DNA of 64,000 bases from Cyanobacteria bacterium M_surface_10_m1_298 (GTDB lineage: Bacteria > Cyanobacteriota > Cyanobacteriia > PCC-6307 > Cyanobiaceae): positions 1 through 64,000 of the forward strand of contig VGPT01000004.1 of NCBI GenBank assembly GCA_016882485.1, read 5' to 3'. Position numbers and translations under genes: made by a program. Shown here in pieces: positions 38,379-42,968 of the stretch (position 1 is the first letter of the stretch; each line of letters starts with the position of its first letter). The notes under the pieces were generated by a model that saw only the letters and a list, made by a program, of their open reading frames with translations, searched no databases and was not told the origin of the DNA.

Positions 38379-38437
38379 TCCAATCCTGAGAAAAATCTGA
38401 AGTTTCTCTGTGCTCAAATTCGGGAATCTTCAGTCGT

Positions 38438-38459
38438 GGTCGGTTTTTTCGACCTTTTT
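38438..38459 (+). terminator. Weak terminator after msrA
   Basis: GGTCG and CGACC form a 5-bp stem (6 with a G-T pair) around a T-rich loop, followed by TTTTT. It is the only plausible stop signal between the lpx-msrA polycistron and the next small gene. It could instead belong to that gene's leader. Confidence 0.5.
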
Positions 38460-38510
38460 CCTCCCGTCGGTGGGATCTACGGTTCAACGGTCTCGACTGC
38501 AGGTGTTTGT

Positions 38511-38699
38511 ATGTATCTGCTGACGATTCGCGATGGTCTCGTGACGCGTCATATCGGTCCTTATCAGAGCCCGAAGCAGGCCTCTGATGATTTGGATCGC
38601 CTCCTTCGGCACTTTGGGGATCGTGCCCGCTGGCAGATTCACGCGTTGGAAGAGCCTGCCAGCGTGATCGGCTCCAGCTCTGTTGCGACCGCGGCCTGA
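38511..38699 (+). CDS. Small conserved-looking soluble protein
   Basis: This 62-residue protein (MYLLTIRDGLVTRHIGPYQS..., then DDLDRLLRHFGDRARWQIHA) appears well folded: a beta pair, an amphipathic helix, and a final strand. The ATG at 38511 is preferred; an upstream extension of 25 residues from 38436 looks non-coding. It is preceded by an unusually AT-rich 130-bp leader. I recognise it as a picocyanobacterial-type small protein without a known role. Its stop is 7 bp from the convergent membrane gene. Confidence 0.68.
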   Translation: MYLLTIRDGLVTRHIGPYQSPKQASDDLDRLLRHFGDRARWQIHALEEPASVIGSSSVATAA

Positions 38700-38705
38700 T
38701 CCGCC

Positions 38706-38945
38706 TCAGGGGTTGGGTTTCTGCCCTGGATAACCTCGCAGCAGGCCGCTTTCCACCATGAGCCCTACCCCCGCCACGATGGCGACCAGGCTGAGGGTTC
38801 CGTACCAAAACCAGGGGCCGTGGGGCTGACCCATGGCCTGGAGGGTTCTGCGTTGCACTGCCTCACCAAATAGGCAGAGACCAGCGGGCAGCAACAGCAC
38901 GCTGACCTGGGCCTTCACGTACCAGCGAAGTTTCCGCACGGCCAT
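38706..38945 (-). CDS. Small two-helix membrane protein
   Basis: This 79-residue protein has a basic N-terminus (MAVRKLRWYVK), one hydrophobic segment at about 12-28 (VSVLLLPAGLCLFGEAV), and a second at about 46-64 (WYGTLSLVAIVAGVGLMVES). No family is recognised. It lies 32 bp downstream of pepA at the end of the minus-strand run that begins with the LuxR-type gene. Confidence 0.7.
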   Translation of the reverse strand: MAVRKLRWYVKAQVSVLLLPAGLCLFGEAVQRRTLQAMGQPHGPWFWYGTLSLVAIVAGVGLMVESGLLRGYPGQKPNP

Positions 38946-38977
38946 GGGGTCAGGGCGTCTTCTGGGTTGGGATCAGC

Positions 38978-40480
38978 CTAGGTCGGCCCCCCGGCCCGCA
39001 CCCAGTTCACCAGGGTGCGCACCCCAAAGCCGGTGGCGCCGGCGGGATCGAGGCCACGTCCCTTATCGCTCCAAACGGTGCCGGCGATATCCAGGTGAGC
39101 CCAGGGGATCTCGCCGTTGACGAAGTCCTGCAGGAAGAGGGCGGCGGTAATTGATCCTCCCGGACGGGGGCCGGTGTTCTTCATGTCGGCCAGTCCGCTC
39201 TTCAGGCCCGCCCGGTAGGAGGCTCGAAGGGGCATCCGCCAGAGGTTTTCGCCCCCTTGTTCGGCGGCGTTGCGCAGGGCATCCGCCAGGCCGTCATTGG
39301 GGGACCAGAGACCGGCGATCTCTTCGCCCAGGGCAATCACACAGGCACCGGTGAGGGTCGCGAGGTCCACCACCGCATCCGGTTCGAGCTTGCAGGCGTA
39401 GACCAGGGCATCGGCCAGGGTCAGACGGCCTTCGGCATCGGTGTTGTTGATTTCGATCGTTTTGCCGTTGGAGGCCTTCACGATCGCGCCGGGGTGAATG
39501 GCTCCGCCGCTGATCATGTTTTCGCAGGCGGCCACGATCATGTGCACTTCAACGCCAGCCGGTTTGAGTTCGGCGATGGCTCGCATGGCCCCCAGGACTG
39601 CCGCGCTGCCGCCCATGTCGTACTTCATCATTTCGATCTGGGAGCCGGCGGTTTTGAGGTTGTAGCCGCCGGAATCGAAGGTGAGGCCCTTGCCCACCAG
39701 CACCAAACGCCGCTCGGCCGTGCCGGCTGGGCGGTAGGTGAGATGGATGAATTTCGGGGGTAGGTCTGAGCCCTGGGCCACCGCCAGATAAGAGCCCATC
39801 CCCAGCGCTTCACAGTCGGAGCGCTCCAGCACCTTGAGCTCCAGGCCGAAGTCTCGGGCTAATCCGGCGGCGGTCTCCGCCAGGGCTGTGGGGGTCAGCA
39901 CGTTGGGAGGGGCCGCCACCAGCTCCCGCGCCAACTCCACGCCGCTGCAGATGGCTGCTGTGCTGCTGATCGCAGCGGAGGCCTCATTGAGCGCTGCCGC
40001 CGGCAGGCCCAGCAGCTCCACGCTCGATGGCGTGGATTTGGGCTCGCTTTCGCTTTTGAAGCGTTGATCGCTGAACTGGATCAGGCGGGTGGCCTCCGCC
40101 ATGGCCGAGGCTGCCGCTGCGGGCGCGAAGCCCTCCAGGGGCATGGCGATGCCGAGGCTGCCGGCTCCGGTCGCTGCGGCTGCTTTGATCCCGTTCGCCG
40201 TGGCCTGCCGCAGTTGTTCGGAGCCGAAGGCGGCGGGCTCGCCCAGTCCCACCAGCACCACGGCGCCGGGTTGCGGCCCCAATAGGGAGAAGCTGACGCT
40301 CTCTCCGGCTTTGGCCTTGAAGCGGCGCCGCTCCAGCTCCTGATTCAGAGCGGCTCCAAAGCGAGCGTTCAGCAGATCCTGACTGGCCTGGCTGGCGCCG
40401 TCACTGAACAGACCCACCACCAGGGCTTCACCAGTCCAGTCCTGGGCCGTGGTGCTGCTGCAGCGAATCTCCATGGCCAA
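38978..40480 (-). CDS. pepA: Leucyl aminopeptidase (M17)
   Basis: This 500-residue two-zinc hexameric peptidase removes N-terminal residues. The metal and catalytic segments are LVGKGLTFDSGGYNLK, MKYDMGGSAAVLGAMRA, and the signature NNTDAEGRLTLADALVYA (near 345-362), with ATLTGACVIALGEE after it. E. coli PepA also binds DNA in Xer recombination and regulation; whether this one does is unknown. An internal ATG two codons in is equally possible. It lies 31 bp downstream of the GIY-YIG gene. Confidence 0.95.
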   Translation of the reverse strand: MAMEIRCSSTTAQDWTGEALVVGLFSDGASQASQDLLNARFGAALNQELERRRFKAKAGESVSFSLLGPQPGAVVLVGLGEPAAFGSEQLRQATANGIKAAAATGAGSLGIAMPLEGFAPAAAASAMAEATRLIQFSDQRFKSESEPKSTPSSVELLGLPAAALNEASAAISSTAAICSGVELARELVAAPPNVLTPTALAETAAGLARDFGLELKVLERSDCEALGMGSYLAVAQGSDLPPKFIHLTYRPAGTAERRLVLVGKGLTFDSGGYNLKTAGSQIEMMKYDMGGSAAVLGAMRAIAELKPAGVEVHMIVAACENMISGGAIHPGAIVKASNGKTIEINNTDAEGRLTLADALVYACKLEPDAVVDLATLTGACVIALGEEIAGLWSPNDGLADALRNAAEQGGENLWRMPLRASYRAGLKSGLADMKNTGPRPGGSITAALFLQDFVNGEIPWAHLDIAGTVWSDKGRGLDPAGATGFGVRTLVNWVRAGGPT

Positions 40481-40511
40481 TGCGAAGGCAATGGGCGCGA
40501 TGGTAGGTCGA

Positions 40512-41120
40512 TCAGTCGAGCTCGGCGGTGAAGGGGGTGGCCCAGCGCGCCCGGGTTTCCTTGTTAAAAGGCGGTAGCCAGTGCCGGATCAGCGCCTGCT
40601 CCAACGCTCGCCGTGCTTTCACCCCCTCCGGGGCATCCAGCCAGAAGCGGATGCTCAGCTGACTGCCCAGCCCCACCTGTTGCAGGGCTTCTCCGTAGGC
40701 AGCGAGGTAGCTCTTGCAGTCGTGATCGCCTTTCCAGCGGCGATCAGCCTGTCCCGTTTCACCCACGTAGAGCAGCAGCGGTCCATCGAGATGGGGAGGC
40801 CGATCGAGCACGAAATAGAGAGCGGCACCGTCCCCCTGGCGTTCGGGCCAGCGCCAGAACTGCAGGTGTTGAGCCGCCAGAGCCAGCGGATTGAGCCGTT
40901 GCACCGCCACCGCAGTGCTGCTGGTGCCGCGAAACAGATCCATTTGCCCTGGAGCAAGCTGACTGCCCGCTGCCACCGCATCAAAGCGAGGGCGCTGGAA
41001 GTCGAGCAGGCGCTGCTGCCAGGCCATCAGCTGATGCTCCTGCATCGGCAGAGCGTCCCCGGCACCACCGCTGGCTGAGGCGGTGGTCTGGAAGAGATCT
41101 CCCTGGCGACCCTGTGGCAT
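40512..41120 (-). CDS. GIY-YIG nuclease-like protein
   Basis: This 202-residue protein has a GIY-YIG-type segment in its C-terminal half, LLLYVGETGQADRRWKGDHD (about 116-135), followed by CKSYLAAYGEALQ and a terminal QALIRHWLPPFNKETRARW. The N-terminal half (MPQGRQGDLFQ...) is Gln-rich and contains repeated DLF motifs. Family members cut DNA in repair, recombination or restriction; activity is unproven here. It begins 6 bp after the helix-hairpin-helix gene, implying joint expression. Confidence 0.78.
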   Translation of the reverse strand: MPQGRQGDLFQTTASASGGAGDALPMQEHQLMAWQQRLLDFQRPRFDAVAAGSQLAPGQMDLFRGTSSTAVAVQRLNPLALAAQHLQFWRWPERQGDGAALYFVLDRPPHLDGPLLLYVGETGQADRRWKGDHDCKSYLAAYGEALQQVGLGSQLSIRFWLDAPEGVKARRALEQALIRHWLPPFNKETRARWATPFTAELD

Positions 41121-41126
41121 CGGGCT

Positions 41127-41774
41127 TCAGGCTGAACGCGGCAATTCAGGCCCGGCGGGGCCCTGACCGAAGCGCACCTTGCCGATCAGCTCTTCCACCA
41201 CGGCCGGTGGCAGCTGCAGGCGCTGCTGCAGGTCGGCCAGATCTTGAAACGGAGCGCGCTGCCGCTCCCGTAGCAGCCGTTGCCGGCGCTCAGCGTTGAG
41301 TTGGGGCAGTTGCCGCTCCAGGCTGCTGCGGCTGGCGCGGTTGAGATCGAGCCGCACAGGCGTGATCGCTGACGGTGAACCATCGCCATACCAGCGGAAC
41401 TGAAGCAGGGGCTCCCAGCTACGCACCAGGGCATCGGGAACATCAAGAAGCTTTTGGAGATCATCCGGGCCACTCAGCTGGACCCCTCCCTGCTGCAGTC
41501 GCAACAGCAGATCCACCTGCTGGGGCTGGATCTGGGGAAGGCGCAGCCAGTCGGAGGCGGTGGCCCGGTTCACATCCAGTCGCCAACCCAGGGCAGCGGC
41601 ATGGCGCACATCCTCATCGCTGCGCAGGCGCAGGCCCGGATCCTGCTGCAGTTTCAACTCCAGCAGGTCTTGCTCGACGCGTCGATCGGGGGGCGGATCG
41701 GCGCGTCGGGGCAGCTGGCCTGCTGCTTCCAGCAGACCGCGGGCCAGGGGATCCAACCAGTGGCCGCGGGCCAT
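41127..41774 (-). CDS. Helix-hairpin-helix (ComEA-like) protein
   Basis: This 215-residue protein contains two or three HhH-type repeats: LDVNRATASDWLRLPQIQPQ, VQLSGPDDLQKLLDVPDALV, and LDLNRASRSSLERQLPQLNA followed by RAPFQDLADLQQRLQLPPAV. HhH repeats bind DNA backbone non-specifically, as in ComEA and UvrC. There is no signal peptide, so it is more likely cytoplasmic than a competence receptor. The ATG at 41774 avoids overlap with the LuxR-type gene. It sits between that gene and the GIY-YIG gene. Confidence 0.8.
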   Translation of the reverse strand: MARGHWLDPLARGLLEAAGQLPRRADPPPDRRVEQDLLELKLQQDPGLRLRSDEDVRHAAALGWRLDVNRATASDWLRLPQIQPQQVDLLLRLQQGGVQLSGPDDLQKLLDVPDALVRSWEPLLQFRWYGDGSPSAITPVRLDLNRASRSSLERQLPQLNAERRQRLLRERQRAPFQDLADLQQRLQLPPAVVEELIGKVRFGQGPAGPELPRSA

Positions 41775-41806
41775 GGTGGTGCGTTGCTGCAGCGGATGGG
41801 CCGACC

Positions 41807-42517
41807 TTAACGAGAGTCTGGCCACTCCACCAAGCCCAGCCGGATCCCAGCCACGGCCGCCTGAATCCGACCCCGTGTGTCCATCTTGCGCAGGATGTGA
41901 CGCACGTGATCTTTCACGGTTTCCACCGAGAGGTGCAGTTGCTTGGCGATGGCTCGGTTGGGGGTTCCCTCGGCCATCCGCTGCAGGATGTCCACTTCCC
42001 GGGGGGTGAGTTCTGCTAGGGGGCTGCCCGGGCCACCGCCCAGCTGTTGGAAGTAGCTGCGGCTCAGGTTGTTGTCGATGTACACCGCTCCGGACTGCAT
42101 CGTGCGGATGGCGTTAAACAACGTGCCGAACCCCAGTTGTGTCTCCAGGCAGATGCCATCGCAGTTGGCCTGCAGTGCCTGGTGGATCGCCATCAGCCGT
42201 CGCGGTTGGGTCACCACCATCAAGGTTGCAGGAGGCTTACTCAGTTGTTTGGCTGCAGCCACCAGGCAGCCGCCATTGCCCTGCTCCAGCCGGTCGGTGC
42301 AGATCAGCACATCGCCCTGCTGGCTTTCGAGCGCCTGGAGGGCTCCTTCCATCGTTGTGCCAGCCCAGACAATCTGCGGGCCCGGTTGGCAGGCCGCAAT
42401 GAAGAGCGTCAGTGCGAGGCGGCTGCCCATGCACACCACCAGCCGGGAGTCAGCTAGCAGTTGGTTGCCGCGCGCCACGTTGTTGCGCACCTGAGCGATG
42501 GCTGGGGTGTAGTCCAA
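41807..42517 (-). CDS. LuxR/NarL-type regulator with degenerate receiver domain
   Basis: This 236-residue protein ends in a typical LuxR helix-turn-helix: LTPREVDILQRMAEGTPNRA, IAKQLHLSVETVKDHVRHIL, RKMDTRGRIQAAVAGIRLGL. The N-terminal ~150 residues look like a receiver domain. A candidate acceptor Asp lies in DVLICTDRLEQGNG, but the acidic pair normally at the end of strand 1 is missing (RLVVCMGSRLAL). It may therefore respond to something other than phosphorylation. It heads a minus-strand run with HhH, GIY-YIG and PepA genes, and is divergent from DUF1825. Confidence 0.88.
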   Translation of the reverse strand: MDYTPAIAQVRNNVARGNQLLADSRLVVCMGSRLALTLFIAACQPGPQIVWAGTTMEGALQALESQQGDVLICTDRLEQGNGGCLVAAAKQLSKPPATLMVVTQPRRLMAIHQALQANCDGICLETQLGFGTLFNAIRTMQSGAVYIDNNLSRSYFQQLGGGPGSPLAELTPREVDILQRMAEGTPNRAIAKQLHLSVETVKDHVRHILRKMDTRGRIQAAVAGIRLGLVEWPDSR

Positions 42518-42644
42518 GGTCGCCGTCCAGTTGCACCCTCTTCAATCTGTGCCGCTGGCCAGGATTTGGCAGCTATTACGCCAATCCGCACTCGCCAGGC
42601 CAGGCCCAGCTCAGCAGAATTCAGCCACCGCCGGCTCCAGTGCC

Positions 42645-42968
42645 ATGGCCTTTTTCGAATCCGAGATCGTCCAGGATGAGGCGAAGCGTCTGTTTGGCGA
42701 CTACCAGCAGTTGATGCAGCTGGGGGGTGAATACGGCAAGTTCGACCGCGAGGGCAAAAAGCTGTTCATCGAGCGCATGGAGGAGCTCATGGACCGCTAC
42801 CGGGTGTTCATGAAGCGCTTCGAGCTATCCGATGACTTCCAGGCCAAGCTCACGGTGGAGCAGTTGCGCACCCAGCTCAGCCAGTTCGGCATGACGCCTG
42901 ACCAGATGTTTGAGCAGATGCAGCGCACCCTGGATCGGATGAAGGGAGATCTCCAGAAGGAGAGCTGA
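42645..42968 (+). CDS. DUF1825 family protein
   Basis: This 107-residue acidic, helical protein matches the cyanobacterial DUF1825 pattern: MAFFESEIVQDEAKRLFGDY, LMQLGGEYGKFDREGKKLFI, and FMKRFELSDDFQAKLTVEQL. Its function is not known to me; the fold is probably a helical bundle. The ATG at 42645 is chosen because an extension from 42531 is non-conserved and Arg/Gln-rich. tyrS follows after 43 bp. Confidence 0.82.
   Translation: MAFFESEIVQDEAKRLFGDYQQLMQLGGEYGKFDREGKKLFIERMEELMDRYRVFMKRFELSDDFQAKLTVEQLRTQLSQFGMTPDQMFEQMQRTLDRMKGDLQKES

Follow-up and report, generated by a model that had tools for sequence, protein, structure and literature searches.

A putative clamp-tethered GIY-YIG endonuclease of picocyanobacteria, a candidate partner of MutS in mismatch repair without MutL

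The window considered here is a stretch of 64,000 nucleotides from Cyanobacteria bacterium M_surface_10_m1_298 (contig VGPT01000004.1 of assembly GCA_016882485.1, positions 1 to 64,000), which belongs to the family Cyanobiaceae (the picocyanobacteria), the order PCC-6307 and the class Cyanobacteriia; these are the family, order and class meant below. Five open reading frames (ORFs) lie on its minus strand at positions 38706-42517, and they encode a LuxR-type regulator, a helix-hairpin-helix (HhH) protein, a GIY-YIG endonuclease-like protein (the GIY protein), the aminopeptidase PepA and a small protein. A preliminary description of the sequence had noted five same-facing genes with successive gaps of 32, 6, 31 and 32 bp, which the ORF coordinates confirm, and had raised the possibility of a small DNA-processing or repair module under one regulator. 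The content of interest lies in one gene, that of the GIY protein, rather than in the run. The explanation favoured here, with middling confidence, is that of an endonuclease tethered to the clamp, which most likely cuts the strand for MutS in a mismatch repair that has no MutL. The HhH, PepA, LuxR and small-protein genes are unnecessary for the clamp-tethered nuclease reading. The features of the GIY protein are as follows.

40512-41120, minus strand: GIY-YIG endonuclease-like protein of 202 aa (ORF, homologues, model)
41091-41105, minus strand: predicted first QxxLF docking motif, QGDLF, residues 6-10 (conservation, shuffle test, low-confidence stretch of the model)
40932-40946, minus strand: predicted second QxxLF docking motif, QMDLF, residues 59-63 (conservation, shuffle test)
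40542-40871, minus strand: GIY-YIG catalytic domain, about residues 84-193 (invariant residues, model, VIA-align, PF01541)

Direct profile searches place the GIY protein poorly: Pfam gives no match for the copy in the window, neither Pfam nor NCBIfam assigns it to a family over cut-off, NCBIfam returned nothing relevant for 49 members, and a PDB sequence search recovered no relatives (best E 0.53, unrelated). Among the 49 aligned relatives, however, the GIY-YIG profile PF01541 matches 44 at E<=1 (best 2.7e-6), with the window's own copy unmatched. The AlphaFold2 model (m9133fb43a501, built on the 49-sequence alignment) has a pLDDT of 87.4 and a pTM of 0.82, and shows strands at residues 100-106, 115-122 and 155-160 and helices at 134-148 and 167-181, in the order strand-strand-helix-strand-helix. 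The top ten VIA-align rows for this model are all GIY-YIG nucleases (Z 5.5-7.1), led by T4 EndoII (Z 7.1), Eco29kI (Z 6.5) and the UvrC N-domain (Z 6.1). Rows of the fold searches outside the GIY-YIG nucleases (APOBEC, TNF-type, Csy) were read as background. Residues Y102, Y118, R128, E174 and N186 are invariant in the 49 homologues, and these are taken by us to be the GIY-YIG catalytic positions (the GIY Tyr, the YIG Tyr, the Arg, the Glu and the Asn). From the alignment and the model, a GIY-YIG fold is almost certain for the protein, and the intact residues make an active nuclease a rather safe prediction.

The GIY protein is found in all 120 genomes of the order, with one match each except for one genome that has a second, weak match, and it is retained even in order genomes of 1.5-1.7 Mb. 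Across the class it is present in 161 of 232 genomes, three of these with weak E-values only, and its distribution outside the family is patchy (134 of 205 class genomes). In a phylum-wide draw of 244 genomes, many of them class members, 69 have the protein, and a single weak match falls beyond the class; 50,697 phage records gave no match. Copies with internal stops or in fragments were seen in G487, G534 and G452, a sign that the gene may be decaying in f32, a family other than that of the window.

The first 80 residues of the GIY protein vary strongly in sequence and length among homologues, except for a conserved helix of the WKQRI..YQ type around W34/Q42 and the two pentapeptides. In the first of these Q6 is invariant and L9 and F10 are conserved at >=90%, and in the second Q59 and L62 are conserved at >=90% (49 homologues). 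The pattern Q..[LF][FLWV] is present on both sides of the helix in 124 of 130 distinct homologues (67/69 in the family, 57/61 outside), and 1000 shuffles of these regions placed it on both sides in at most 4 sequences per group. In the strict form, Q.[SDNETQ]LF, both motifs are there in 46/69 family and 30/61 outside proteins, against <=1 in shuffles. For these counts the duplicates L019, L071, L074 and L185 were dropped, and L017 and L024 were scored as motif-lacking, the former being cut by an ambiguous base and the latter by the choice of start. The strict pattern occurs among the 62 ORFs of the window in the GIY protein only, in two copies. The consensus for binding to the beta clamp published in PMC4549789 is Q-L-x-L-F, which the QxxLF motifs match, and several GIY homologues from outside the family carry QLSLF exactly. 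Model confidence is 56-75 around both motifs, which probably lie in a flexible stretch; low confidence is as expected for docking peptides. The GIY protein has a QLxLF-type pentapeptide in a probably flexible stretch, as clients of the beta clamp do. As a control, the DnaE of the same genome has QGNLF at position 936 of 1188, near the site of the clamp motif of the E. coli enzyme. Docking of the GIY protein on the beta clamp is predicted from these motifs with good confidence.

The genomic background of the nuclease is the loss of MutL. No genome of the order (0/120) has MutL (TIGR00585) over cut-off, the sub-threshold matches in 23 of them being only stretches of about 50 residues, and 201 of 205 class genomes outside the family have it. 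MutS1 (TIGR01070) has matches in all 27 family genomes of the class draw. A second draw of 61 family genomes has it over cut-off in 53 and as a match in all 34 of the good-quality ones, though some of the matches counted may be to the paralogue MutS2. The genome of the window encodes a MutS1 of 890.8 bits, over cut-off (G000:C24:6488-8977, L218), which carries QGTLF. Of the MutS-MutL pair, MutS1 is present and MutL is missing. All 41 MutS1 proteins read from the family have an N-terminal extension: their open frame runs for at least 78 residues ahead of the first domain, compared with <=56 in the 39 read from outside. A QxxLF-type motif is found in this extension in 37/41 family proteins (shuffle expectation 3.0) and in 0/39 outside, and the C-terminal motif Q[LMITV]x[LMIF][FL] is found in 20/39 outside and in 0/41 of the family. 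Judged by these motifs, the MutL-less family appears to have exchanged a C-terminal docking of MutS on the clamp for one through a new N-terminal arm. The absence of mutL and mutH from Prochlorococcus MED4, and MutS without MutL in Prochlorococcus, are noted in the available part of PMC2921402; likewise, the accessible text of PMC5101192 reports several strains without mutL and all surveyed cyanobacteria without mutH. New here is the extent of the MutL loss, together with the change in MutS.

Presence of the GIY protein goes along with absence of MutL, being recorded in 29 of 31 class genomes without MutL over cut-off and in 132 of 201 with it. The two outside-family genomes G139 and G156 have no MutL over cut-off and have kept the GIY protein, and G205 (62% complete) has neither MutL nor the GIY protein. 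Because the protein is also present in so many MutL-bearing genomes, it is not simply a substitute for MutL.

The mechanism proposed for the clamp-tethered nuclease combines these elements. The GIY nuclease would be tethered to the beta sliding clamp by the two short motifs in its flexible N-terminal arm, and tethering would lead it to cut DNA where replication has just passed. MutS, docked on the clamp by its family-specific N-terminal motif, would locate the mismatch. The clamp, which is loaded with its face toward the new strand, would position the GIY nuclease to cut that strand. We infer the partnership with MutS from the MutL loss, the rewiring of MutS and the retention of the GIY protein in the smallest genomes. 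A role of the GIY protein in mismatch repair is therewith put forward tentatively. It is equally a possibility, short of a probability, that the picocyanobacteria (Prochlorococcus, marine Synechococcus and Cyanobium) repair mismatches with neither MutL nor MutH, by means of a MutS and a GIY-YIG nuclease that both dock on the replication clamp, the former by a motif recently acquired at its N terminus and the latter by its two motifs. Such a pathway would be an unfused counterpart of plant MSH1 in organisms that rank among the most abundant of all phototrophs.

Several observations weigh against this explanation. All VIA-align Z values are below 8, and therefore the fold call rests on VIA-align plus the profile plus the residues; no PDB structure was matched by Foldseek at E<=0.001, the best row being Eco29kI at 0.33, and its first eight rows are all Eco29kI, though weak. 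The association with MutL loss is close to a single event, as 27 of the 31 MutL-less class genomes belong to one family, and the 132 of 201 MutL-bearing genomes that have the GIY protein count on the same side. The genome G249 (99% complete) has MutS and neither MutL nor the GIY protein. In G156, MutS lacks the N-terminal extension and carries the C-terminal motif, and 4/41 family MutS1 proteins are without the strict N-terminal motif (two of them show QLSLV). Finally, mutS (contig C24) and the GIY gene (C4) are on different contigs, so that there is no neighbourhood link to repair.

The strongest alternative, rather unlikely all the same, is that the clamp-tethered GIY-YIG nuclease has its substrates at replication forks (flaps, gaps or branched DNA) and works independently of MutS, as a Slx1-like or backup excision nuclease. 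The same evidence of fold and motifs applies to such an enzyme, its presence beside MutL is natural where a replacement for MutL is unneeded, and Slx1, itself a GIY-YIG nuclease, is in the VIA-align list, though weakly (Z 2.1). A fork nuclease, however, offers no reason for an N-terminal clamp-like motif to have arisen in MutS1 of precisely the family that has no MutL, or for the GIY protein to be universal in that family and patchy outside it.

It is decidedly improbable that the GIY protein is a general strand cutter of mismatch repair throughout the cyanobacteria, which are without MutH, working with MutL where that is present and without it in the picocyanobacteria. A MutH analogue has been postulated, according to the available portion of PMC4390886. 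The conservation of both motifs and the GIY domain outside the family (57/61) also fits a general cutter, but 69 of the 201 MutL-bearing genomes are without the GIY protein. Further, ten cyanobacterial MutL proteins keep a near-canonical endonuclease motif (EQHIAHERVLYE-like) together with the ACR and CPHGRP segments, and MutL may therefore cut by itself. The idea that cyanobacterial MutL has no nuclease motif and hence needs the GIY protein is not supported by the ten MutL read. In these proteins (L105-L114) the canonical DQHA motif is replaced by EQHI(A or V)HER, and the other endonuclease segments are kept.

The neighbours of the GIY gene in the run are the following.

41807-42517, minus strand: LuxR/NarL-type regulator with a weak receiver-like N-terminal half (Pfam GerE/LuxR 2.9e-17, Response_reg only 0.048; alignment)
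41127-41774, minus strand: HhH protein of 215 aa with two HhH-rich segments (Pfam HHH_3 1.6e-7)
38978-40480, minus strand: leucyl aminopeptidase PepA, M17 (Pfam M17 5e-122; NCBIfam NF002076 768 bits, over cut-off)
38706-38945, minus strand: small protein of 79 aa, of membrane type as read by eye (ORF; homologues in family loci)

The starts of the LuxR (MDYTP) and HhH (MARGHWLDP) proteins are backed by homologues. PepA, by profile an ordinary M17 aminopeptidase, may begin at ATG 40474 in place of TTG 40480, in which case the gap between the GIY and PepA genes is 37 bp. For the 79-aa protein Pfam gave nothing convincing, and neither Pfam nor NCBIfam assigned a family over cut-off. The side-by-side position of a GIY-YIG-type and an HhH protein, as first described, agrees with the HHH_3 match and with the GIY-YIG relatives and predicted structure, and the suspicion of DNA repair is judged right, with the repair role itself conditional as above.

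Gene order was compared in 71 family loci with the GIY gene, leaving out the own locus, L064 and L065 and counting only loci long enough for each test; the counts include a few near-identical loci. PepA is downstream of the GIY gene in 68/68 testable loci, and HhH is upstream in 64/68, the exceptions (L046, L049, L055, L060) being all labelled Prochlorococcus. The small-protein homologue is found in 48/54 testable loci and the LuxR gene in 37/54. In L054, L056, L057, L058, L062 and L063 the small-protein gene is about 1.4 kb beyond PepA, not about 40 bp, which indicates an insertion between them. The flanks are also stable in the family, with TyrS on one side and MsrA, LpxB and LpxA on the other. 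A DUF1825 protein (PF08855, 3.1e-51) is encoded in the window at 42621-42968 on the plus strand, divergent from the place of the LuxR gene, and this divergent gene is kept in 48/48 testable loci. A convergent ORF of 87 aa at 38436-38699 on the plus strand has no Pfam or NCBIfam family; it looks like a real small gene, and its homologue stays beside MsrA in most family loci. In 60 loci outside the family, viewed over about 4 kb on either side of the GIY gene where the contig allows, PepA is next to it in 0/60 and HhH in 2/60, both of one genus. The HhH-protein profile matches 170/232 class genomes, many of them without the GIY protein, and 0/10 genomes of genus g2 (1.6-1.7 Mb).

Gene order is thus conserved within the family, the divergent DUF1825 flank included. 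Since the whole neighbourhood, and not the run specifically, is stable in the family and the linkage is gone outside, a module under one regulator is a weak case. The five-gene module as a unit was rejected on these grounds, as was HhH as an obligate partner of the GIY protein, HhH being absent from Prochlorococcus loci and present in many genomes without the GIY protein. Nor is a regulator conserved at the head of the run, as LuxR is absent in 17/54 loci. Short spacing is commonplace, with 24/37 same-strand neighbour pairs within 50 bp in a greedy ORF set of the window. A scan for sigma-70-like promoters inside the run gave none, against a chance expectation of only 0.5, and so carries little information either way. 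In spite of the shared strand, the short gaps and the constant company of PepA and nearly constant company of HhH in the family, a DNA-processing module of LuxR, HhH, GIY protein and PepA under one regulator is scarcely credible, given a flank of other function as conserved as the run, the missing LuxR genes, the lack of linkage outside the family except for HhH in two loci, the HhH genes of GIY-less genomes and equally close pairs elsewhere in the window.

As for the clamp-tethered nuclease, searches of the open-access literature, read at the level of titles and the start of abstracts and exclusive of subscription papers, brought up no report of the GIY protein or of a clamp-docked cyanobacterial GIY-YIG nuclease. 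MutS without MutL in Prochlorococcus is in print, with the strand cutter unnamed in the available part of that source (PMC2921402), and the GIY protein offers a specific candidate: all order genomes searched retain it, and its predicted docking sites are two pentapeptides. If true, this reading would account for the accuracy of replication in phototrophs that are among the most abundant, and it would be a second clamp-based design of mismatch repair without MutL. Should the repair role prove wrong, a GIY-YIG nuclease docked on the clamp and conserved across much of the class would still be a component of replication or repair that is unstudied in the open-access literature so covered.

Known systems differ from the proposed one in several aspects. 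The members of the GIY-YIG superfamily (UvrC N-domain, R.Eco29kI, T4 EndoII, Slx1) share the predicted fold and the same invariant Tyr, Tyr, Arg, Glu and Asn, whereas the GIY protein adds two putative clamp-docking motifs and the conserved helix in its N-terminal arm, is without the partner domains of UvrC or the restriction enzymes, and has in the window a copy below Pfam detection. Endonuclease-type MutL, as in the other cyanobacteria seen here, likewise makes a clamp-dependent incision beside MutS; its fold is unrelated and MutL is missing in the family. NucS/EndoMS is also a clamp-binding nuclease for mismatch repair without MutL; unlike the system proposed here, it detects the mismatch with no help from MutS, and its nuclease fold is another one, RecB-like. 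PMC12292046 puts forward a possible link between the loss of MutL and the accessory nuclease domains that some MutS proteins carry. The nearest precedent, by analogy, is plant MSH1, an organellar MutS fused to a GIY-YIG domain, in which a GIY-YIG nuclease likewise accompanies a MutS protein where MutL is missing. The genome of the window does not have the two in one polypeptide as in MSH1; rather, MutS and the nuclease are separate proteins of separate genes, which would meet on the clamp.

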